A stretch of 41,125 nucleotides of DNA. Source: Nitrospirota bacterium. GTDB taxonomy: Bacteria; Nitrospirota; Thermodesulfovibrionia; Thermodesulfovibrionales; JdFR-85. The notes below the pieces were generated by a model. The model was given only the letters and a program-made list of their open reading frames with translations. It made no database searches and had not been told where the DNA came from. Shown piece by piece: positions 2,580 to 41,125 of the stretch. The translations under genes were made by a program, and so were the position numbers. Positions within the stretch are counted from its first letter, which is position 1, and every line of letters starts with the position of its first letter. The stretch is from assembly GCA_013152485.1 (NCBI GenBank), contig JAADGG010000055.1, positions 1-41,125 on the forward strand, in the 5' to 3' direction.

Positions 2580-3803
2580 TCACATACCCATACCGTGCCC
2601 GCCGCACATGCGGCCCCCGGACAGAGACTCCAGGAATGCAGCCAAGTCGTCTATTTCGGCATCGGTCCAGGTCTTACTTCTTATCTCCGTGATCACCGGT
2701 GACACCGTACCTACGAAATCACCCTCGTAGGGATCATCGAAACCCGTCACCGTTCCCCTTACGACGAATTCCACTGCATCACGAATGCTGCCGTACTTGC
2801 CGTTGTGCATGTAGGGATAGGTGCAGAGCAGCTGCCTCAGGGTCGGTGTCTTGAACTTGCCGATATCGGCTGTAGAGCCTGTAACATAGTAACGCCCCAG
2901 GTCGTACCCTTCGTATTCCGGCATACCGGGATTGGGGAAAAGCGGCTCGCCGGTGGCGTCGTTCGTGCCCGTCTCGTATCCCTGGCGGAAGACACCGATG
3001 TTGTGAAAGCCCCCCTCCGGTGCATCTGCGTAAGTGACATCCGTAAACAGCGGGGCAGGATGGCACGCCGTGCAGTTGCCCTTGCCCTCGAACAGGGCCA
3101 AGCCCCTCACCTGTGCATCCGAAAGCGCCCCGGTGTCTCCTGCCGCAAAGGCATCATAAGGTGAATCAAATGCGAGTAAGGTCCTCTCGTAGGAGGCGAT
3201 CGCCTTCCCCACTGCCTGGAAGACCACGGGGACCTCATAGGGCGTGCCTATGTACTGCTCGATTTCCGGGAAGGCCTGCAGCAGGGCGTCCTCGTACCTG
3301 TAGAGCACGTAGGAGACCACGTTTTCCGGAGTATTGTTCATCTCGAGGGGGTCCTGTATGGGACCGAGCGCCTGGGCCTCGAGACTGGTGCCGGGCAGCA
3401 TATCGCCGGTCAGGGGATCTGTCAGGAACTGCGCCCTGCCGTCCCAGAACTGGCTGTGCTGGAAGGCCGCATTGAACACCGTGGGTGAGTTGCGCTTTCC
3501 CAGGCGGTTGTAAACACCCGTGGACCGGACCCTGCCGTCGGAAAAACCGAACATCGGACTGTGGCACGAGACGCACGCAACCCTGGTCCTGCCGGCATCC
3601 GGGTCGGAGAGGTTCCGGTCCATGAACAGCCTCTTGCCGAGCTGGATCTTCTCGGGAGTAAGCGGATTCGACTCCGGCACCGGCACCGCCGGAACCGTCG
3701 TCTCTCCGGCGGCCTCGGCAACACCAGGCCCCGTTCCCCCCGATATCAACAGGACGAGCACCAGTGCCAAAAAAGAACTCCCTGAACAAAAAATCCTCTT
3801 CAT
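2580..3803 (-). CDS. Diheme cytochrome c peroxidase (MauG/CcpA family), exported
   Basis: Signal peptide-like N-terminus; two CxxCH heme motifs (CVSCH, CTACH); NSPTVFNAAFQHSQFWDGRA and TPTLRQLLCTYPYMHNGKYGS typical of the family. Confidence 0.92.
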   Translation of the reverse strand: MKRIFCSGSSFLALVLVLLISGGTGPGVAEAAGETTVPAVPVPESNPLTPEKIQLGKRLFMDRNLSDPDAGRTRVACVSCHSPMFGFSDGRVRSTGVYNRLGKRNSPTVFNAAFQHSQFWDGRAQFLTDPLTGDMLPGTSLEAQALGPIQDPLEMNNTPENVVSYVLYRYEDALLQAFPEIEQYIGTPYEVPVVFQAVGKAIASYERTLLAFDSPYDAFAAGDTGALSDAQVRGLALFEGKGNCTACHPAPLFTDVTYADAPEGGFHNIGVFRQGYETGTNDATGEPLFPNPGMPEYEGYDLGRYYVTGSTADIGKFKTPTLRQLLCTYPYMHNGKYGSIRDAVEFVVRGTVTGFDDPYEGDFVGTVSPVITEIRSKTWTDAEIDDLAAFLESLSGGRMCGGHGMGM

Positions 3804-4017: not shown

Positions 4018-4049
4018 TTATTTAAAGAACAGCTTGAAACCAAGACCGC

Positions 4050-4146
4050 GATGTCCCTGGGGGAGGCGGAAGCCTGAGAGCCCTGCAAAGTCAGTGCAGG
4101 GGACCCCTTGAACCTGATCCGGGTCATGCCGGCGTAGGGAATGGGA
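4050..4146 (+). promoter_or_regulatory. TPP riboswitch (THI element)
   Basis: CCTGAGAG and CCCCTTGAACCTGATCCGGGTCATGCCGGCGTAGGGAATGGG core motifs; P1 TCCCT (4054-4058)/AGGGA (4136-4140); upstream of thiS. Confidence 0.95.
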
Positions 4147-4152
4147 TGGAAG

Positions 4153-4182
4153 CCGTATTCCATCCAGGGATACGGTTTTTTT
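4153..4182 (+). terminator. Intrinsic terminator of the TPP riboswitch expression platform
   Basis: CCGTATTCC (4153-4161)/GGGATACGG (4167-4175), one G-U pair, 5-nt loop, followed by 7 T. Confidence 0.8.
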
Positions 4183-4598: not shown

Positions 4599-5372
4599 AT
4601 GGAAGACAGGTTTGTAGTACAGGGAATAGAGTTCAAATCAAGGCTCTGGGTCGGAACCGGAAAATACAGGGACTTCGAGGAAACGGCCAAGGCGGTCGAA
4701 GAGTCCGGTACGGACGTTGTGACTGTTGCTGTCAGAAGGGTGAACATCCTTGACCGGAAGTCACCCAACCTGCTCGACTACATCGACCCCAGGAAGTACA
4801 AGATCCTTCCCAACACGGCAGGTTGTTACACGGTAGAGGATGCGCTGAGATATTCGCGCCTCGCAAGGGAGGCAGGGGTATCCGACATGGTCAAGCTCGA
4901 GGTCATCGGCGATGAGAAGACCCTCTTTCCCGATGTCTGCGGGCTTCTCAAGGCCACCGAGATACTGGCCAAGGAAGGATTCATCGTCTTCCCGTACACA
5001 AACGATGACCCAATCGTTGCAAAGAGACTCGTGGATGCAGGGGCTGCCGCGGTAATGCCGCTCGGCGCGCCCATAGGCTCCGGGCTCGGCATAAGAAACC
5101 CGTACAACATTAAAATAATACTCGAGACCGTAGATTCACCAGTGATAGTAGATGCCGGTGTCGGAACCGCCTCTGACGCTGCAACAGCCATGGAGCTGGG
5201 CTGTGATGCGGTACTTATAAACACCGGCATTGCAGGAGCAAAGGAACCCGTTGCAATGGCTGCAGCGATGAAACATGCCGTCATCGCCGGAAGACTCGCC
5301 TACAAGGCCGGGAGGATTCCGAAGAAGCTTTATGCAACCGCAAGCAGTCCCCTTGAAGGGATGCTTCTGTAA
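4599..5372 (+). CDS. thiG: Thiazole synthase ThiG
   Basis: [90 protein letters not shown]. Confidence 0.97.
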
Positions 5373-5399: not shown

Positions 5400-6710
5400 A
5401 TGACGCGGATGGAGACGGCAAGAAGAGGAGAAATAACCGAAGAAGTAAGGATATGTGCTGAGCTCGAAGGTATTGCGCCGGAAGCACTGAGCAGGGACAT
5501 AGCAGATGGAGTGACCGTAATCCTCCGGAACAATACCCACAACATCGAACCTGTCGCAGTTGGCAAGGGACTCAGAACGAAGATCAATGCGAACATCGGC
5601 ACCTCGAAGGACCGGATCTCCTTTGAGGAGGAGATGGAAAAACTGGACATACTCGTCAAGTACGGGGCGGATGCAGTGATGGATCTGTCGACCGGAGGCC
5701 CCATAAAGGACATGAGGCTGTTGATGCTCAGGAAGTCTCCGCTCCCGGTGGGGACCGTACCCGTTTATGAGGCTGTTGTAAGGGCGGTAGAGGCACATGG
5801 CTCGATGGCGAAGATGACGGTGGAAGACCTGTTCGCCGTGATAGAAGACCACGGCAAGGAGGGGGTCGATTTCATTACCGTCCACTCAGGGCTCACGCTC
5901 GAGACCGTAAAACACCTTCGCACCGAGAACAGGATTCTCGATGTTGTCAGCCGCGGGGGGGCTTTCCTGGTCGAGTGGATGATTTACAACGAGCGTGAAA
6001 ACCCCCTGTATGAGTATTACGACAGGCTGCTCGACATCGCCAGAAAGTATGACATGACCCTCAGCCTCGGTGACGGCATGAGACCGGGCTGCATAGCCGA
6101 TGCCACGGACAGGGCTCAGGTACAGGAGCTCATTACCCTCGGAGAGCTGCATCAGCGGGCAAGGGATGCAGGCGTTCAGAGCATGATAGAGGGACCCGGA
6201 CATGTCCCACTGAATCAGGTCGAGCTGAACATACGGATGGAAAAAGAGCTCTGTAACGGTGCCCCGTTCTATGTACTCGGTCCGCTTGTAACGGATATAG
6301 CGATGGGTTACGACCATATTACCGCTGCAATCGGAGGTGCAGTGGCGGCGGCGGCAGGGGCTGACTTTCTCTGCTATGTCACTCCTGCGGAACACATCAG
6401 GCTCCCCTCGATCGACGACGTGAGGGAAGGAGTAATCGCTTCAAGGATCGCTGCACACGCAGCGGATATAGCCAAGGGAATTCCGGGCGCGCTCGAGCGC
6501 AACATGGAGATGGCGCGCAGGAGAAAGGCACTGGACTGGGACGGACAGATGGAACTGAGCCTTGATCCCGAAAAAGTGAGGCGTTACCGTTCCGAGGCCC
6601 CACCCACGGAGACAGAGGTCTGCAGCATGTGCGGAGAGTTCTGTGCCATAAGGACGGTGGAAAAGGCACTCAAACGGACACAGCAGTCCGGACCGCATGA
6701 TCCTGTCTGA
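5400..6710 (+). CDS. thiC: Phosphomethylpyrimidine synthase ThiC
   Basis: INANIGTS, DLSTGGPI, LGDGMRPGCIADATD, EGPGHVPLNQ, C-terminal CSMCGEFCAIR cluster motif. Confidence 0.97.
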   Translation: MTRMETARRGEITEEVRICAELEGIAPEALSRDIADGVTVILRNNTHNIEPVAVGKGLRTKINANIGTSKDRISFEEEMEKLDILVKYGADAVMDLSTGGPIKDMRLLMLRKSPLPVGTVPVYEAVVRAVEAHGSMAKMTVEDLFAVIEDHGKEGVDFITVHSGLTLETVKHLRTENRILDVVSRGGAFLVEWMIYNERENPLYEYYDRLLDIARKYDMTLSLGDGMRPGCIADATDRAQVQELITLGELHQRARDAGVQSMIEGPGHVPLNQVELNIRMEKELCNGAPFYVLGPLVTDIAMGYDHITAAIGGAVAAAAGADFLCYVTPAEHIRLPSIDDVREGVIASRIAAHAADIAKGIPGALERNMEMARRRKALDWDGQMELSLDPEKVRRYRSEAPPTETEVCSMCGEFCAIRTVEKALKRTQQSGPHDPV

Positions 6711-32445: not shown

Positions 32446-33657
32446 TTACAGCAGGAACTGGAGCATCACCCTCAGGGTGTTGAAGTCTTCGGTCTTCACG
32501 TTTCTCACAGTGCCTTCCTTCTTGAAGTCGCTCATGGCGTACTCGGCACTCAGCCTAAGCTTCTGACCTTTTATGTAGTAGTTGATGCCGGGAGCTATCC
32601 AGGTCAGCTGCTGGTCCTCCTGCTCGTTGAGCTTGGCATACTTCCAGACCTCGTACCTGCCGTACAGCTGAACCCTTCCCACCCAGATCTTTTTGGGAAG
32701 GAGGTAGCCGGCCTTCACGTAGTAACCGTTTCTCTCACCGTACATGCCTGTTGCCTTCGGATCAGGATCCCAGCCCTTGTACGCCTCGTCAAAGCTGACG
32801 TCGAGATAAGCGCCGGAGAGGGTAAAGGCACCGACGGGAGTGGGATACTCGAAGAATCCGTCGACAGTCCAGGTTATGTTGTCCTTTGCGTCGGTCTTTG
32901 CACCGAGGTTGCCGTAAATAACGTCGGGCTCATACTGCATACCACCACCGATGGTCAGGACCTTCTTCATCCCGCGGTATGTTCCGAAGTACACGAGCGA
33001 GGCCTCGGGTTTCAGCAAGGTCAGGTGCAGCCTTCCGGTATAACGGAGGGAACTTTTCGGAGTGTTGGGATCCTCCCTGCCTTCCATGATACCTATCCTG
33101 TACTGGATCCTGTTGTTTACGAAGTTGCCCCATGCGACGATACCCACGTCCCTGGATGCCGCAAACGGGTTGTAGACGAAGAGAGAACGGTCGATGCTCA
33201 GCGGATCGAAACATCCCTCATTGTTCTCCCTCGTGAGGGGATCCTTGGTCAGACCCACCCTCATCCTCAGGTATTTCGAGAACTTGAACTTCATGAAGGC
33301 ATCCAGCATATCGAGCCTGTTTGATACGGAATCGGCGACATTGAGGTCGTTGACGAGCCTGGGACCTTTGTGCTCGATCTGTATCACGAATCCGGCATTC
33401 CTCGTCAGCCTGCCCGTGAAGTTGAACCTGTTCCTCTTGAAGTAGAAATCGACCGTATCGTCGGTACCGTCAGGGCCTGAACCCGTGTCACGCCATACTC
33501 CGTAGAACTGTGAAAAGTAGCTGATCCTGAGCGACAAGCCCCGCTTTCCCTTTATCTTCACACCAGCCTGCGCCGTATCCACAGCCATGCCGATCAGAAA
33601 GACAAAGACCAGGGCTATCACCGAGAAGAGCCCAAGCTTCTTACTTATATCTCTCAT
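32446..33657 (-). CDS. Outer-membrane beta-barrel porin (OprO/OprP-like)
   Basis: Signal peptide ending AQA; alternating beta-strand pattern (RNRFNFTGRLTRNAGFVIQIEH, LRMRVGLTKDPLTREN); C-terminal aromatic/hydrophobic strand TLRVMLQFLL. Confidence 0.85.
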   Translation of the reverse strand: MRDISKKLGLFSVIALVFVFLIGMAVDTAQAGVKIKGKRGLSLRISYFSQFYGVWRDTGSGPDGTDDTVDFYFKRNRFNFTGRLTRNAGFVIQIEHKGPRLVNDLNVADSVSNRLDMLDAFMKFKFSKYLRMRVGLTKDPLTRENNEGCFDPLSIDRSLFVYNPFAASRDVGIVAWGNFVNNRIQYRIGIMEGREDPNTPKSSLRYTGRLHLTLLKPEASLVYFGTYRGMKKVLTIGGGMQYEPDVIYGNLGAKTDAKDNITWTVDGFFEYPTPVGAFTLSGAYLDVSFDEAYKGWDPDPKATGMYGERNGYYVKAGYLLPKKIWVGRVQLYGRYEVWKYAKLNEQEDQQLTWIAPGINYYIKGQKLRLSAEYAMSDFKKEGTVRNVKTEDFNTLRVMLQFLL

Positions 33658-33714
33658 GAGTAACTCCTCCTTAATTACCAGATTGTTATGGCTTTTAGTT
33701 CCTTAAGACCCTGA

Positions 33715-35403
33715 TTAGTATCCGCCTGAGTCACCACCGCCGCCGCCGGCACCACCGCCGCCGCCAGGGCCCTCGATAGCGCATATCTCGGCATCCGTCC
33801 TGTTGACATTGTCTGCATGCTCGGCATCGGAGTTCGCCAGGATCTCCTGTACGAAGTTGGATGCGTTGTAGTTGACCGCCTCGGACAACCAGGAGGTGGT
33901 CCCTGCAGGCACGAATGCAACTGCGTCAGCAGGAATGAATGTACCTGCAGTCGCTTCATCGGTCAGGGTCACATCCTCTGAGCCGCCCGCATTGAAGGTG
34001 TATGTACCCAGCTTGTACCAGGTTCCGCCGTTTTTGGTCAGATCGACGGTCACCGTATCAGATGTACCGCTATGTGTGATCGTGAACTTGGCATCCGGCG
34101 CGTAAACTGATTTCGCCGTATGCCATACATAGACGTCATAATCACCAGCAGCGGGTAAGGAAGGAGTCCATGTGGCTGAATTGGTGCCTGTTCCGGCTGC
34201 TATGTACCTGAAGTCGGTACCGTAGTAGGAACCGTTTCCGGCACTTGTGGAGGTGTTCCAGGTACCGACCACGGAAAATCCTGTATCTGTATTGTCAACG
34301 ACCACTGCATTCGATATATCCTTCAGCTCCTTGTCGACTATCCAGCTGGAGCCGGCATCGAGTGCACCGTACTGTGCCGTCATCTGGCCCCACTCTATCC
34401 ATGCACCGTCATAGAGCTTTACAGGGTAGTTGAGCACCCCGTCGAGCGCCAGGAATGTGATCGCCGCCCTCCAGGATGTGCGGCAGTACGGATATGCCGT
34501 CGTATTCTCGCTGACGCCTATTGAATCCATGGCGGTCTTGAGATCGGTATCAGAGAGGAGTTTTCCGTCACTGTCGAGGAGGTTCGTGTATTCGAGCCAC
34601 TTTGCCCCCCTGATGTGTCCCTCGAATGCAACATACTTTCCTGCCTCGGAACCGGCAGTCCTGTAATTGTCACCTCTGTACTCCTCGTTGCTTCTCGTAT
34701 CTATGACAACTGTCTTTGGATCGTTGTCAGCAGCCACGGTTATCATGTCCTCGAGAGGAGCCCTGAACCTGTCTGGATCCTGCTTCAGGTAGCATACGCT
34801 GTAGGTGGACGGTTCCGGTGTCTCTGCAGCTTCAAACTCGAGAGGATATCCGGCATCGGCCCACGTAGTGTCCACAAAGCCGTTAAGCACCCTCAGTTTG
34901 CTCCTCGGGAATCCCCAGTAGCGGAAGTTGTAGTAGGCCCTTGCCGTGTTCATGAAGGAGAAATTGCCGCTTGGTCCGGTTATTACGATCAAGGTGGCTC
35001 CGTCTATGCCTGTCCGCTGTATAACCGCATCCATCTGATTCTTGGTGGCGACCATATCTATCGTCATGCTTACGCCGTCAGACCTGTTGGCCTTTATATC
35101 AGCATAAGAGACGAGTTGAGAACCCGGGATATGTCCGGCATCGTACTGGTCCTGTGTACCCACAAACAGCACGACTATCTTGTTGTTGCCGTAAATGTCT
35201 CCGGGATAGCCATTGTCAAGCCAGCTCTTGAGCTCGCTCGGCTCCACAAGGACGTTGATTTTCGGATCCACCCGTTCAGCGGCTATCTTATCTGAAGTAT
35301 CGTAATCTTCTGCGCAACTATACAAAAACAAAGAAACCGTCAGCATCATAAGGATCGATACCAGGGATATCGAAATACTCTTTTTACGTTTTAGAAAACT
35401 CAT
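33715..35403 (-). CDS. Secreted (probable lipoprotein) two-domain rhodanese/thiosulfate sulfurtransferase with a golvesin-like domain and Gly-rich C-terminal tail
   Basis: Lipobox-like LFLYSC; C-terminal rhodanese loop YCRTSWRAA with Cys; N-terminal rhodanese domain lacks Cys (TGPSGNFSF); golvesin-like GGTWYKLGTYTFNAG..ADAVAFVP; tail GPGGGGGAGGGGGDSGGY. Confidence 0.85.
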   Translation of the reverse strand: MSFLKRKKSISISLVSILMMLTVSLFLYSCAEDYDTSDKIAAERVDPKINVLVEPSELKSWLDNGYPGDIYGNNKIVVLFVGTQDQYDAGHIPGSQLVSYADIKANRSDGVSMTIDMVATKNQMDAVIQRTGIDGATLIVITGPSGNFSFMNTARAYYNFRYWGFPRSKLRVLNGFVDTTWADAGYPLEFEAAETPEPSTYSVCYLKQDPDRFRAPLEDMITVAADNDPKTVVIDTRSNEEYRGDNYRTAGSEAGKYVAFEGHIRGAKWLEYTNLLDSDGKLLSDTDLKTAMDSIGVSENTTAYPYCRTSWRAAITFLALDGVLNYPVKLYDGAWIEWGQMTAQYGALDAGSSWIVDKELKDISNAVVVDNTDTGFSVVGTWNTSTSAGNGSYYGTDFRYIAAGTGTNSATWTPSLPAAGDYDVYVWHTAKSVYAPDAKFTITHSGTSDTVTVDLTKNGGTWYKLGTYTFNAGGSEDVTLTDEATAGTFIPADAVAFVPAGTTSWLSEAVNYNASNFVQEILANSDAEHADNVNRTDAEICAIEGPGGGGGAGGGGGDSGGY

Positions 35404-35678: not shown

Positions 35679-37127
35679 CTATGTAACACCCTTGTCCTTG
35701 CGGAATATGTCTCCCTTGACCCAAAGCCAGAAGAGGCTCTTCGCGCCCTTGAGCGCGGCCTTCAGGTCATCTATCGTCCGCATCCTGATTATCCTTCCCC
35801 AGATATACTTAGGTCTCGAATAGAACTTCTTGAAGGCCAGCTGCCTCAGCTTCCAGATCTCTTCCCTCGTCATGGTATAGGGAACAAAGGCCGCTCCCTG
35901 ATAAGTGTAGTCGCTCGGGTCTTCCGACATCGTACCGTACTTGTCTATGTTGTCATACAGCTCTGAACCCGGGAAAGGTGTAAGGGCGTGGAAGTTGGCC
36001 ACATCAGGGTCCAGTTCACAGGCAAACTCGATGGTCTTGAGTCCGTCCTCGTATGTCTGACCCGGGATGCCGAACAGAAAGGGCGTAAGCACCTTGAGCC
36101 CGACTTCCTTGGCCGTCTTTACGGCCCTGCGCGTCTGCTCGAGCGTTATACCCTTCCGGATCGCATTGAGGTTTCTCTGGACACCGCTCTCAGCCCCGAA
36201 CAGGATGGACCAGCATCCCGCCTCCTTGAATGCCTCGAGCAGCGGTTTGTCCACCTGGCTCACACAGGCTGAAGCAAACCAAGTGAAGTTCAGCTTGCGC
36301 GCCTTTATCTCTTTTGCTATGCGCATCGCCCTGTCGTAATTTGCCGCAAGGGTATCGTCTATGAACTTGATCTCCCGGTATCCCTGTTCGAGACAGAGCT
36401 CTATCTCCTCCATCACGTTTTCAACACTGCGATACCTGATGCCGCTCTTGCGGGTCTTGTCTATCTGGAAGCAGAAGAGACATTTGCGGTTGCATCCCCT
36501 CGATGTTATCATTACTGCAACGGGCTTCCTCTTGTACGTGGCAGGCGGCGGAACATACTTGATCGCCCCCTCACCCAGAAGGTCCCTTGCGGGGAACGGA
36601 AGGCTGTCAAGGTCCTCAATGAGGGGCCTCAAAGGATTTTTTCTTATCTCGCCGGCCTCATCACGGTATACCGTACCGAGAACCCCCTCCATGCTCTTGC
36701 CTTCCGACAATCTCTCCATCATCTCGACCAGTGTATACTCCCCCTCACCCGTAACCACAGCATCCAGCCACTCGCAGTCCTCCAGACACTTCTCCTGCAT
36801 GGCAATGGGATAGGGACCTCCGACACATACATATATGTTCCTGTCTATCTCCTTTATGGCCTTGGCCGCTTCCTTCGCCTTCTTCCAGCCGAACGTCGTC
36901 GAATAGAGCCCCACGATGTCCGGCCTCTCCTTCTCGATCTCCTTCATTATCTCCGCATTGCGCATGAAAGCTCCGTTGAGGAATCTGACCTCGTGTCCTG
37001 CTTCCCTGACGGAAGCAGCAATATAGAGCAGGCCGAGAGGCTGCCAATAGTTTATCTGCGAGCCTGCCGTCTTTGCAGAAAAAATCTCCTCAGGCAACCA
37101 TGCCGGTACTACAAGAAAACATTTCAT
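35679..37127 (-). CDS. B12-binding-domain radical SAM protein
   Basis: SRGCNRKCLFCFQ CxxxCxxC cluster motif; N-terminal QPLGLLYIAASVREAGHEV cobalamin-binding-type region; PGQTYEDGLKTIEFA. Confidence 0.9.
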   Translation of the reverse strand: MKCFLVVPAWLPEEIFSAKTAGSQINYWQPLGLLYIAASVREAGHEVRFLNGAFMRNAEIMKEIEKERPDIVGLYSTTFGWKKAKEAAKAIKEIDRNIYVCVGGPYPIAMQEKCLEDCEWLDAVVTGEGEYTLVEMMERLSEGKSMEGVLGTVYRDEAGEIRKNPLRPLIEDLDSLPFPARDLLGEGAIKYVPPPATYKRKPVAVMITSRGCNRKCLFCFQIDKTRKSGIRYRSVENVMEEIELCLEQGYREIKFIDDTLAANYDRAMRIAKEIKARKLNFTWFASACVSQVDKPLLEAFKEAGCWSILFGAESGVQRNLNAIRKGITLEQTRRAVKTAKEVGLKVLTPFLFGIPGQTYEDGLKTIEFACELDPDVANFHALTPFPGSELYDNIDKYGTMSEDPSDYTYQGAAFVPYTMTREEIWKLRQLAFKKFYSRPKYIWGRIIRMRTIDDLKAALKGAKSLFWLWVKGDIFRKDKGVT

Positions 37128-37155
37128 ATTTTTTCACCATTGTACCTGTTTTTTT

Positions 37156-38556
37156 TCACTCTAACACCTTCCTGCCCAATATCTCCTCGGCCACCTCGAT
37201 CCCGGACTCCATTGCGCGGTCCATGTTGTAGTACTTGAACAGGCCGCCCCTGCCGATGGGCCGGAGGTTCTTGAAGTTCTTGAGATACTGAAGGATCTTC
37301 TCATATGGTTCCCTGTAACCGACTTCCATGAGCGGATACGCCTTTGCAGCCCTCACGACACAGCTGTCGATCACCTCGCTCTCCTTGATGAAGCCCAACT
37401 TCTCGAGATTCTTCACCGTGATAGACGCAAGCTCCTCATCACTGGAATTCCATATCTTGTCTCCCTTGAAGCAGAAGAACTCGGCCACAACGTGCGTCTT
37501 GCCTTCAGGGGCCATGTAAGGGCTCCAGTTTTTCGGCTCATGGATTCTCCCCAGCGGCATGTCCTTCTCGGGGAAATACAGCCAGGTCAGGTTCGTCACC
37601 TTTTCACGGTCGAGCATTATCGTCACGATCACTATATCCCTGTACCTCAGCCTCGAAGCGGCTTCCATCACGTCGTCCGGGACCGCGGGCTGCAACATCT
37701 TTGCAAGGTGTGTGAGAGGAATACTCGATATGAAGTCTTCACCCTTGATCTCGTATTCCTTGCCGTTGTTGGCAACGGTTATGCTGTTTACGTTGAAGCC
37801 CTCGTGATTTACTCTCACCACCTTCGTGTCCGTTATCACGGAGCTGCCGGCCTCTTCGATGCCTTCCTTGAATTTATCCGACAGCTGGCCTATCCCATAC
37901 GGCGGATAGATAAATTCGTCAGCAAGGGTCTTTATGCTCTTTCCGCTCACCTTTATGAAACCGTTCTTTATCGCCTCCCAGAGAGAGAGCCCTTTTATTC
38001 GCTCTGCAACCCATTCCTGGCTGATGCTCTTGCAGTCGATCCCCCAGACCTTCTCGCTGTACTGCTTGAAGTACAGATCGAACATCTTGCGGCCGAACTG
38101 GTTGACCACCCAGTCCTCGAGAGAGATTATCTCCGGGGGATTCAGTGCATTCTTCACCTTTTCCTTCCAGTAATCAAGCAGAATCTGCAGGGAGGTCATT
38201 ATACCGAGGCCGAACATGGCATTTGCCGGTTTAAGAGGATAGTCGAAATACTTGTCGAACATGTAGATCTGGCTGGTTCTCAATACTTTCAGGAATTCGC
38301 CTCTCAGGAGTTCGTTTACGAAGCGTTCCAATGACCTGTTGTGAGTGATGAACCTGTGTCCCCCCAGGTCGAACATGAACCCGTTGTGCTTGTACGTCTT
38401 AGACAATCCGCCTACGGTGGAATCCCCCTCGACCACCAGCACCTTTTTTCCTTCCCTGGACAAAACATATCCGGCAGAGAGTCCGGCGAGCCCTCCACCA
38501 AGAATTACTATCCCGTTGTTGTTACTGTTAATATCCAACGTTATTGAGCACCTCAC
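37156..38556 (-). CDS. FAD-dependent amine oxidase/protoporphyrinogen oxidase-like protein
   Basis: IVILGGGLAGLSAGYVLSREGKKVLVVEGDSTVGGLSKTYKHNGFMFDLGGHRFITHN. Confidence 0.88.
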   Translation of the reverse strand: MRCSITLDINSNNNGIVILGGGLAGLSAGYVLSREGKKVLVVEGDSTVGGLSKTYKHNGFMFDLGGHRFITHNRSLERFVNELLRGEFLKVLRTSQIYMFDKYFDYPLKPANAMFGLGIMTSLQILLDYWKEKVKNALNPPEIISLEDWVVNQFGRKMFDLYFKQYSEKVWGIDCKSISQEWVAERIKGLSLWEAIKNGFIKVSGKSIKTLADEFIYPPYGIGQLSDKFKEGIEEAGSSVITDTKVVRVNHEGFNVNSITVANNGKEYEIKGEDFISSIPLTHLAKMLQPAVPDDVMEAASRLRYRDIVIVTIMLDREKVTNLTWLYFPEKDMPLGRIHEPKNWSPYMAPEGKTHVVAEFFCFKGDKIWNSSDEELASITVKNLEKLGFIKESEVIDSCVVRAAKAYPLMEVGYREPYEKILQYLKNFKNLRPIGRGGLFKYYNMDRAMESGIEVAEEILGRKVLE

Positions 38557-38604: not shown

Positions 38605-38639
38605 AACCAGAGGGACTACGGATCGTAGTCCCTCTGGTT
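38605..38639 (-). terminator. Long hairpin, probable terminator downstream of the Usp gene
   Basis: AACCAGAGGGACTACG (38605-38620)/CGTAGTCCCTCTGGTT (38624-38639), 16-bp perfect stem, 3-nt loop. Confidence 0.65.
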
Positions 38640-38778: not shown

Positions 38779-39249
38779 CTAAAACTTCTGCCCCTTTATC
38801 ACCAGTACCGGAATGTCTGCCTTCTCAAGCACTTCCCTGCTTACACTACCCATGAGCAACGGCTCAAATCTCTTGCCCCTCGAGCCTATGACTATCATCT
38901 CTATGCCTTCCTCACTGACGGTGTTGAGTATCTCTTCGGCGGGATGACCTATCTTCGCCAAGGTGCTAACGCCGGACAGCCCGTTGTCCTCAAGCAGCTT
39001 CTTGTAGTAGGTCAGTATCTTCTCGGCCTTCTTGTCGAGCATCTCCTTGTACTCCGTTCCCTGGACGGCCTCCCTCAATGCCTCCAGCTCCGACTCACCG
39101 AGCATCTCATCCATCAGGAAGCTGGCATCGAACTTTTCGACGTACAGCAGCAGTATTGACTCCGGTCGACAGGAAGTGAACATCTCGACAAACTTTGCAA
39201 CAGCATTTTTAGAGCCCTTAGTCTCGTTTACAGCTACCAATATTTTCAT
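38779..39249 (-). CDS. Universal stress protein (UspA family)
   Basis: MKILVAVNETKGSKNAV; GHPAEEILNTVSEEGIEMIVIGSRGKRFEPLLMGSVSREVLEKADIPVLVIKG. Confidence 0.95.
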   Translation of the reverse strand: MKILVAVNETKGSKNAVAKFVEMFTSCRPESILLLYVEKFDASFLMDEMLGESELEALREAVQGTEYKEMLDKKAEKILTYYKKLLEDNGLSGVSTLAKIGHPAEEILNTVSEEGIEMIVIGSRGKRFEPLLMGSVSREVLEKADIPVLVIKGQKF

Positions 39250-39336
39250 AATTCATTACCTCATGATGAACAGTTTTTGTTTAGGGTTCTTAAAAATAAC
39301 GTTTGGATTGCCACCCGGCAACTCGTAAACGGCTTA

Positions 39337-39666
39337 TCACCCACCGCTATAGTCGGCTGTATCACCGTAGTCACCGCTGTCACCGTAGTCTCCGCTGTCA
39401 CCGTAGTCTCCGCTGTCACCGTAGTCACCGCTGTCACCGTAGTCTCCGCTGTCGCCGTAGTCTCCGCTGTCGCCGTAGTCTCCGCTGTCACCGTAGTCAC
39501 CGCTGTCACCGTAGTCACCGCTGTCGCCGTAGTCTCCGCTGTCATAATCACCTGTCGCTGCTATCGCCTTCTTGATCACAATACCGTTTGGGGACAGACC
39601 ATACCCGGCAAGTAACAGCAGTATTATCCCAAGGGTCATTACCATAACTGCCTTGTTAGCTCTCAT
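39337..39666 (-). CDS. Small exported/membrane-anchored repeat protein with about ten tandem GDYGDS units
   Basis: Hydrophobic N-terminus (MVMTLGIILLLLAGYG) then AIAATGDYDSGDYGDSGDYGDS...; differences within the repeat array are synonymous Gly-codon changes. Confidence 0.8.
   Translation of the reverse strand: MRANKAVMVMTLGIILLLLAGYGLSPNGIVIKKAIAATGDYDSGDYGDSGDYGDSGDYGDSGDYGDSGDYGDSGDYGDSGDYGDSGDYGDSGDYGDSGDYGDTADYSGG
39362..39541. repeat. 18-bp coding tandem repeat, 10 units (TCNCCGTAGTCNCCGCTG on plus strand)
   Basis: Units read directly; only position N varies (A/T/G). Confidence 0.95.
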
Positions 39667-39747
39667 TACGTCCCTCCCTCTCTGTCTTTAAAGATCGCCT
39701 GCACGGGAACTCTCACGCAAAAGACTTTAAAGACCTTAAAATTATTT

Positions 39748-39800
39748 TATTCCTGCAGCATGCTGAAACGGTCGCACTCATTCAACATGCTGCAGGAATA
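39748..39800. other. Long inverted repeat (20-bp arms, 13-nt loop) between the two small Gly/Tyr repeat genes
   Basis: TATTCCTGCAGCATGCTGAA (39748-39767) vs TTCAACATGCTGCAGGAATA (39781-39800), 19/20 complementary. Confidence 0.85.
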
Positions 39801-39916
39801 TACTGGCTTTCGAACTCAGGATGCCCACATACCGCTCCGGACATCATGATGCAAGACACCCATCTCAGTGCCGGCCGTCCCGCTTAAAACAGCAGCTCTT
39901 TCCCGCAAGTCATCGA

Positions 39917-40162
39917 TTACTGGTAACCGCCGGCACCATAGCCGCCTGCTCCGGCACCATAACCACCTGCACCACCGCCGTAACCGCCGGCACCACCACC
40001 GTAACCGCCGGCTTCCTCACCGCCGCCGTAACCGCCTGCGCCGACCTCCTCAACATAACCGGCCACCTTCTGATAACCTGTATAGGACGACACGCTATAG
40101 CCCAGCAGAAACCCGATAAACAGCGCAACAACTACAAACACAAACCAGAGACCGCTTTTCAT
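39917..40162 (-). CDS. Small Gly/Tyr-rich protein with N-terminal TM/signal segment (GGYGGG/AGGYGAG repeats)
   Basis: MKSGLWFVFVVVALFIGFLLGYSVSSYTGYQKVAGYVEEVGAGGYGGGEEAGGYGGGAGGYGGGAGGYGAGAGGYGAGGYQ; AGGAGG-like site (plus CCTCCT) just upstream. Confidence 0.8.
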   Translation of the reverse strand: MKSGLWFVFVVVALFIGFLLGYSVSSYTGYQKVAGYVEEVGAGGYGGGEEAGGYGGGAGGYGGGAGGYGAGAGGYGAGGYQ

Positions 40163-40199
40163 GTCCTCTAATCCTCCTTTGGGGAATTTTTAACTGACC

Positions 40200-40451
40200 T
40201 TATTTCTTCCTGATCTTCCAGCTGAACTTACCCGAAACCTGATTCTTCTCGATGATCTCGTTGCCGTTGGAGTCACACATCGAAGAGATAGACTCGGATG
40301 ACGACGGATTGTCGAAGATCACCTCCAGGACGTCTCCGCTCTTCAGCTTCTCAAGGGCCTTCTTCGTGTAGATCTGAGGATGGGGACACACATACCCCTG
40401 AACATCAAGCAAATACTCTCCATCAGCTTTCTTTTCAAACTTCATTGCCAT
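40200..40451 (-). CDS. tusA: TusA-family sulfurtransferase (sulfur carrier)
   Basis: LDVQGYVCPHPQIYTKKALEKLKSGDVLEVIFDNPSS; Cys-Pro-x-Pro motif. Confidence 0.92.
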   Translation of the reverse strand: MAMKFEKKADGEYLLDVQGYVCPHPQIYTKKALEKLKSGDVLEVIFDNPSSSESISSMCDSNGNEIIEKNQVSGKFSWKIRKK

Positions 40452-40492
40452 GACTGATACCTCCTTATATTTTGTTTAGAGTTTGGCTATGT

Positions 40493-41125
40493 TTACAGGT
40501 CAAAGGCCGCCATCTCCTTTGCCATCTTCCTCTCTGTCCACCAGTTGAAGAACTTGACACCTATATATGCACCACCGATCATCCCGAATCCGAAAAGCCA
40601 GCCGGACGGATCACCGTTTGCAACCCTGGCAAAGAATGCACCAACGTTACAACCGAGGGCGAGCCTTGAACCTATCCCCATGAAGAAACCACCGATGACC
40701 GCCCACGTCGCCAGCTCCCTGGTCGGCTTCTTGAACTTGAACTCGTTATGCAGAAGCGCCATTGTGGCAGCACCGCCTATGAGGGCAAGAGACATCCAGT
40801 CCGCAGGATTGAACAGGGGGTTTGGTATACCGTTGGTGAATCCGAAATATATGTTGTCCATGTTGTTAACACCCAATTTGTGCAGCACCCATCCGACCCA
40901 CTGTGCCTCCTGAGTGGTGACGTACCAGTAACCGGGGTCGAAAACGGTGCCTCTCACCGACAGTCCATAGTCCTGCCCGATGGCCTTGAGGATCTGACCG
41001 GCGTTACCCACACCGAACTTGAGGCGCAGGCCCTCGATCACAAACATGTGCAGACCACTCGCTATACCGAGGAAAAGACCGGCGATCGCCGTCCTCTTTG
41101 AGGCAAGGATCATGTTCCAGTAGCC
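40493..41125 (-). CDS. YeeE/YedE-family (thio)sulfur permease, C-terminal part; gene probably continues past the window edge
   Basis: Multiple TM segments; GIGSRLALGCNVGAFF conserved-Cys motif; frame stays open upstream of the first listed Met. Confidence 0.85.
   Translation of the reverse strand, partial: GYWNMILASKRTAIAGLFLGIASGLHMFVIEGLRLKFGVGNAGQILKAIGQDYGLSVRGTVFDPGYWYVTTQEAQWVGWVLHKLGVNNMDNIYFGFTNGIPNPLFNPADWMSLALIGGAATMALLHNEFKFKKPTRELATWAVIGGFFMGIGSRLALGCNVGAFFARVANGDPSGWLFGFGMIGGAYIGVKFFNWWTERKMAKEMAAFDL

Follow-up and report, generated by a model that had tools for sequence, protein, structure and literature searches.

Small GYG membrane proteins beside a YeeE-TusA sulfur-relay cluster of a Nitrospirota bacterium: putative accessory subunits of the importer

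Genes at the contig end

The window analyzed here is a stretch of 41,125 nucleotides from a Nitrospirota bacterium. It represents the whole of contig C91 in a 96-contig genome of 2.06 Mb, and the end of the window is the end of the contig. The original prediction named five genes on the minus strand between positions 38779 and 41125, and all of them were found where it had placed them. The outermost gene (40493-41125) encodes the C-terminal 210 amino acids of a YeeE/YedE-family sulfur transporter (PF04143, 69 bits), of which the N-terminal part is lost at the contig end. We searched for the remainder of yeeE across the genome's own assembly and did not find it. The fragment in the window holds the third conserved Cys of the transporter in the motif ALGCNVG, which is equivalent to Cys293 of 6leo, and its orthologues in relatives are 79-97% identical.

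This gene is followed by that of a TusA-family sulfur carrier of 83 aa possessing a CPHP motif (40200-40451; PF01206, 76.7 bits). Next to it are the genes of an 81-aa small bitopic protein, in which a transmembrane (TM) helix is joined to a tail of AGGYGGG and AGGYGAG units (39917-40162), of a 109-aa protein composed of a hydrophobic segment and GDYGDS repeats (39337-39666), and of a universal stress protein (Usp) of 156 aa (38779-39249; PF00582, 81.2 bits). A 20-bp inverted repeat (95%, 13-nt loop; 39748-39800) lies in the gap between the 81-aa and 109-aa genes, and a 16-bp perfect hairpin (38605-38639) lies in the gap between the Usp gene and the next one. Both are possible transcript ends or processing sites.

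The minus strand continues with a FAD-dependent amine-oxidase-like protein of the PRK07208 type (37156-38556), whose homologue at locus L075 scored above the cut-off with PF01593 and NF005548, and with a B12-binding radical SAM protein (35679-37127), whose L075 homologue contains PF04055 and PF02310. Then come an ExtH-type rhodanese lipoprotein with a Golvesin_C domain and the tail GGGGGAGGGGGDSGGY (33715-35403; NF040901, PF00581, PF25275) and an ExtI-type porin (32446-33657; NF040900, PF07396). The scores of the latter two, 224.9 bits for NF040901 and 453 bits for NF040900, are to be compared with the NCBIfam equivalog cut-offs of 200 and 150, respectively. That is, an ExtHI pair, of a type known from a Geobacter selenite/tellurite cluster, stands beside the YeeE-TusA cluster (32446-35403). 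In the genus of the window, the ExtH gene is located a few genes past yeeE-tusA. The C-terminus of ExtH, GGGGDSGGY, is similar to the repeats of the small proteins, and this tail is kept in G004. The likeness between the Gly-rich end of ExtH and the tails of the small proteins hints at a possible shared tail chemistry.

The two repeat ORFs as genes

Each of the two repeat ORFs has a Shine-Dalgarno-like sequence and an N-terminal hydrophobic stretch, and neither protein contains Cys. Gly and Tyr together make up 49% of the 81-aa protein and 37% of the 109-aa protein. Tandem Repeats Finder located a 21-bp array of about 3.8 copies in the former (39934-40012, minus strand), coding for the AGGYGGG/AGGYGAG units, and an 18-bp array of 10.2 copies with 94% matches in the latter (39362-39544, minus strand), coding for GDYGDS about ten times.

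The arrays are also open in the antisense direction and in other frames. Among the nine exact GDYGDS units of the named frame, only two positions vary, both of which are third-codon positions and synonymous. The sister genomes G001, G002 and G004 encode the 109-aa protein in the corresponding place with differing repeat numbers, and a profile of the family described below detects the 81-aa protein. These results indicate that the repeat ORFs are genes beyond chance. No repeats like those of the 109-aa protein were found elsewhere in the same genome. At G001:C85, G001:C112, G004:C35 and G004:C38 the assemblies break within the GDYGDS array, and the true copy number there is not readable.

By eye, the 81-aa protein possesses a TM helix and no obvious cleavage site. 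The 109-aa protein shows, by eye, a candidate cleavage site at AIA-A, and its relative in G002 a lipobox-like LVGC. The 109-aa protein may not be anchored but secreted. Its gene is separated from the 81-aa gene by 250 bp and the hairpin.

A family of small GYG membrane proteins

The small, mostly Cys-free, single-TM proteins with a GYG motif that are encoded after yeeE-tusA are new here. They occur in two forms. Form A is a pair of neighbouring genes encoding about 55-75 aa each, with one GYG motif, and the consensus sequences are 'LWIV..GFLMGYSVPPF.E.G...YY..LY' and 'GF..GY.IS..TG.EPGYFEAVEA.GYGGG...E.Q.YYK.L'. Form B is a single gene with the same helix and a GGYG-repeat tail, which ranges from one terminal GGYG in a 52-aa protein of Burkholderiales to many in Nitrospirota and Rokubacteria. 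Most members of the family have no repeats and carry a single GYG motif behind the helix, and in nearly all of them the helix stands immediately before the tail. In the alignments, positions occupied by G, Y, YG and L are invariant. No Cys is conserved, and a few members have one Cys or more. The N side of the helix was the more positive one in 123 of 162 small proteins. Since such a charge distribution is that of an N-in helix with the tail outside, it suggests that the tail is periplasmic.

The 81-aa protein is of form B. Profile A2, made for form A from small proteins of other genomes with the 81-aa protein left out, nevertheless detects this protein at E = 9.5e-11, and alignment of the protein to the two-gene form gave z = 10. 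The protein also bears the marks of the family, that is, a TM helix followed by GF-x-x-GY, S-x-x-TG and the GYG motif, and its gene is located directly behind tusA. Profile A2 does not match the 109-aa protein. Direct comparison of this protein with the two-gene form was not significant, and comparison by way of the repeat form in L061 and L062 was significant. The 109-aa protein was seen in one genus only. We therefore consider it a probable further, genus-level relative of the family, linked through L061 and L062 only.

On the YeeE tree, forms A and B need three changes. Because of these changes, and because the repeat form is possibly the ancestral one, the notion of the repeat form as a simple late expansion was rejected as unsupported. 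Genome G103 possesses two separate yeeE loci (L165, L169), of which one carries the repeat form and the other the two-gene form, a natural comparison within a single genome. At L159 (G154), a variant small protein has one GGYGGG motif between two hydrophobic segments.

Conservation of the neighbourhood

Searches of the order and the family yielded YeeE orthologues, and 80 loci were taken from one scan of named genomes. These belong to Nitrospirota, Desulfobacterota (mostly Desulfobulbales), Alpha-, Beta- and Gammaproteobacteria and Rokubacteria, and the records are almost all MAGs. Since the 80 loci are the best matches to the YeeE of the window, the neighbour rates given below are valid for its YeeE clade only.

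The order of genes in a tblastn map was a 90-aa dsrE-family gene, a 55-aa gene, a 100-aa DsrE, a PMT_2-like GT-C gene, yeeE, tusA, the small protein or proteins, Usp, the FAD protein and the B12 radical SAM protein; a rhodanese was often near the cluster. Among the best 80 matches, a small TM protein was present beside yeeE-tusA in 77/77 loci with a visible flank, in Nitrospirota, Desulfobacterota, Pseudomonadota and Rokubacteria. The original prediction had made its case depend on such a conserved neighbourhood in relatives, and the neighbourhood is there. In the same set of best matches, TusA follows yeeE in 74 of the 77 visible loci, DsrE is upstream in 45/57 loci with enough flank, and Usp is nearby in 39/69. 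That is, the small protein is a steadier partner of this YeeE than TusA, DsrE or Usp. The Usp loci include every Nitrospirota and Desulfobacterota locus with enough flank, and most Pseudomonadota loci keep the small proteins with no Usp nearby.

We also searched 148 Nitrospirota genomes with the form A profile. It matched in 10 of the 24 genomes having this YeeE clade and in none of the 124 without it (Fisher p = 1.9e-9). Nine of the ten matches lie within about 1.2 kb of yeeE, and the tenth is located at a contig start. Thirteen of the other 14 genomes with this YeeE have form B, another small protein bearing GGYG, or the N-terminal part of the small protein, as in G065, where the rest is masked; the fourteenth is cut at a contig end. 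Searched against 12 whole genomes from other phyla, the form A profile matched at one spot only, namely the cluster.

Among loci of the best 80 matches with flank, the GT-C gene is upstream in 54/57, the radical SAM protein is downstream in 54/63 and the FAD protein in 45/63. The importer alone does not account for these conserved neighbours. The GT-C gene is absent from the sister genomes of the window, and several Nitrospirota and Desulfobacterota loci possess the small proteins with neither the FAD protein nor the radical SAM protein. At L075 (4155-5813) and in its homologues, the PMT_2-like GT-C glycosyltransferase stands between the dsr-like genes and yeeE. The B12 radical SAM protein next to the PRK07208-type FAD protein (35679-38556 in the window, and homologues) is HpnJ-like, and a SPASM radical SAM protein is often found opposite, on the other strand.

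Sulfur import and relay

The published YTD genes are yedE, tusA, dsrE and chp1-3 (PMC12998232). The original prediction had pointed to a cluster of this type, suggested that the present locus could be a variant of it and supposed that any dsrE would lie past the window edge. In the window, yeeE and tusA are adjacent on the same strand. In the sister genomes L039 and L040, three small DsrE/F/H-like genes are located directly upstream of yeeE, so that the supposition about dsrE was right for the genus, and the locus of the window can be regarded as a YTD-type variant. The 100-aa DsrE-like protein matches PF02635 and has an invariant Cys61. Its 90-aa partner has a confident DsrE/YchN fold in the predicted structure, and the 55-aa protein has a predicted small alpha/beta fold with no decisive structural match. 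Profiles built from the DsrE- and DsrH-like sequences gave nothing useful against the PDB. Judging from the gene content, the PF02635 match, Cys61 and the predicted fold of the partner, we place the locus, as a variant, with the YTD (yeeE-tusA-dsrEFH type II) clusters for sulfur relay. The genome of the window also has a second YeeE (C17) and other TusA copies; no YTD neighbours were found around C17, C86 and C37.

The part of the prediction that concerned the cluster type thus holds, and other parts need correction. The two classic hypothetical proteins of YTD are DsrF and DsrH rather than the small proteins seen here, and the link of YTD to disproportionation is doubted (PMC13293266). By the same assignment, the possibility that the small proteins are Chp1/Chp2 of YTD was ruled out. 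The picture of YTD clusters is corrected in this respect, as the 'hypothetical proteins' there differ from the small GYG proteins. The present locus shares with the published clusters (PMC12998232, PMC13293266, PMC9751629) the YeeE/YedE transporter, TusA, the three small DsrE/F/H-like genes, the conserved Cys of DsrE, and hosts among Nitrospirota and Desulfobacterota that possess dsrAB. It differs in that the dsrEFH-like genes are upstream, often with the GT-C gene in between, and in that the published gene set is without small GYG membrane proteins, Usp, and the FAD and radical SAM proteins. Our literature search turned up no description of Gly-rich small proteins in the neighbourhood of YedE-TusA, and in the searchable papers the small GYG proteins, Usp and the GT-C, FAD and radical SAM genes are not described with YTD genes.

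We know of no small TM partner in the solved TsuA/TsuB structures. The locus resembles the TsuA/TsuB (YeeE/YeeD) thiosulfate transporter (6leo, 8j4c) in the transporter family, the three channel Cys and the TusA-like partner. However, the present YeeE family has about 480 aa, compared with 339 aa in 6leo, and its scores fall well short of the equivalog cut-offs for TsuA and YedE. The three channel Cys (Cys22, Cys91 and Cys293 of 6leo) are invariant in our YeeE alignment A1 at the 6leo positions, and they are reported as functional (PMC11582611). A related pair, YedE1E2, imports zero-valent sulfur (PMC10812762). TusA and DsrEFH type II hand sulfur to DsrC, and subtype 1 of DsrEFH type II is found mostly in Nitrospirota and Pseudomonadota (PMC13293266).

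The PF04143 and PF01206 matches, together with the DsrE-family genes of the sister genomes, agree with the earlier view that this is a sulfur-handling module. A predicted function in importing sulfur and relaying it to the Dsr system, be it in the oxidative or the disproportionating sense, is well grounded, because the YeeE Cys, the literature on TusA and DsrEFH, the Cys and fold of DsrE, and the dsrA gene found in the window's own genome all point to it.

Proposed role of the small proteins

The small protein stands beside this importer in every checkable relative, in four phyla, and we therefore think that the family probably belongs to the importer, as a component that has been overlooked, and does not serve to coat sulfur droplets. 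More specifically, the small proteins may be bitopic accessory subunits of YeeE with a periplasmic GYG tail, forming a putative complex that is read from synteny; we give this proposal about an even chance of being right. It is based on the almost invariable association with this YeeE, the absence of a conserved Cys, the single helix and a parallel near SoxT1A. In the SoxT1A neighbourhood of Hyphomicrobium denitrificans, a YeeE-like importer stands beside Hden_0678, a Cys-free, single-TM, N-in protein of 56 aa with unknown function (PMC11582611). The two cases are likened by description, and Hden_0678 differs in that it concerns one organism, another YeeE subfamily and the sHdr/Sox pathway, with no GYG repeats reported.

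The proposed mechanism would be as follows. By analogy with known families, the three-Cys channel of YeeE would carry thiosulfate or zero-valent sulfur, TusA would receive the sulfur at the cytoplasmic face, and the DsrE-type proteins, encoded just upstream in relatives, would pass it towards DsrC/DsrAB. The helix of the small protein, N-in by charge, may pack against YeeE, and its flexible GYG tail may extend into the periplasm and recruit or gate a sulfur donor. Candidates for this donor are polysulfide and a periplasmic rhodanese, for instance ExtH, and repetition of the GYG motif could raise the avidity. The small proteins generally lack Cys, so that they are unlikely to be sulfur carriers themselves. 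A broader speculation, which we consider unlikely, is that they represent an undescribed universal class of subunits of dissimilatory sulfur importers. The GYG tail, single in some lineages and repeated in others, would then form a flexible matrix that captures sulfur at the mouth of the transporter and also assembles donors with Gly/Tyr tails, ExtH among them.

These findings bear on the route by which bacteria that disproportionate sulfur or reduce sulfate bring zero-valent sulfur or thiosulfate into the cytoplasm. The small protein, which accompanies this importer across four phyla more constantly than TusA does, is a concrete candidate for a part missing from that route.

Other explanations

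The small TM protein might instead be a regulator or stability factor that sets the level or activity of YeeE according to sulfur, or serves Usp-linked signalling. Small bitopic proteins often tune transporters, as AcrZ and KdpF do, and the constant presence of Usp in Nitrospirota and Desulfobacterota would fit this role. However, the small proteins remain at most Pseudomonadota loci where Usp is missing, and a strict 1:1 presence is at least as well explained by a structural part as by a regulator. We consider this explanation unlikely.

SgpA/B/C of Allochromatium are small, exported and Gly/Tyr-rich. The repeat proteins resemble them in being small, predicted to be exported and Gly/Tyr-rich, and the original prediction took them as a scaffold of this kind, that is, an envelope or matrix around polysulfide or S0 at the cell surface beside the importer. 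Their location next to sulfur transport genes and the differing repeat numbers among sister species are compatible with such a scaffold, and sulfur-globule formers exist among Nitrospirota (PMC10278575). Nevertheless, the small proteins are repeat-free in most lineages, with a single GYG motif behind the helix, and globule coating therefore cannot be the common function. The family further differs from SgpA/B/C in its TM anchor directly before the tail with no clear cleaved signal, in its tie to YeeE, and in the absence of a detectable family match. Pfam and NCBIfam, which may hold no Sgp model, gave only collagen-like low-complexity matches with the repeat proteins. The family is also present in Desulfobulbales and other groups, for which we have no evidence here of globules. 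A globule scaffold is thus poorly supported and could apply to the repeat forms at most; as a whole we regard it as quite unlikely.

Another explanation is that the tails are substrates; the GYG motif would be modified by the B12 or SPASM radical SAM protein, the FAD protein or the GT-C transferase to give a cofactor-like or glycosylated periplasmic tail. The frequent GT-C and radical SAM neighbours of the best 80 matches, and the fact that GYG is the conserved element of the tail, agree with this idea. But loci without the FAD and radical SAM proteins keep the small proteins, the GT-C gene is missing from the window's sister genomes, and the neighbouring enzymes resemble lipid/glycan enzymes (PRK07208, HpnJ-like), so that we think modification of the tail very unlikely. 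The related idea that the small proteins are RiPP precursors is weak. It is highly improbable that they are ordinary low-complexity envelope proteins merely sharing an operon with sulfur genes: repeat number and unit vary freely and nearby genes of the window read as serving the cell envelope, but the family is strictly tied to one YeeE clade across four phyla and is absent elsewhere.

Other features of the window

An Rfam scan of the whole window gave only a TPP riboswitch (4049-4158), which is unrelated to the sulfur cluster and lies upstream of genes reading as thiG (4599-5372) and thiC (5400-6710). The region 2580-3803 encodes a protein with two CxxCH motifs that reads like a di-heme cytochrome c peroxidase of the MauG type.
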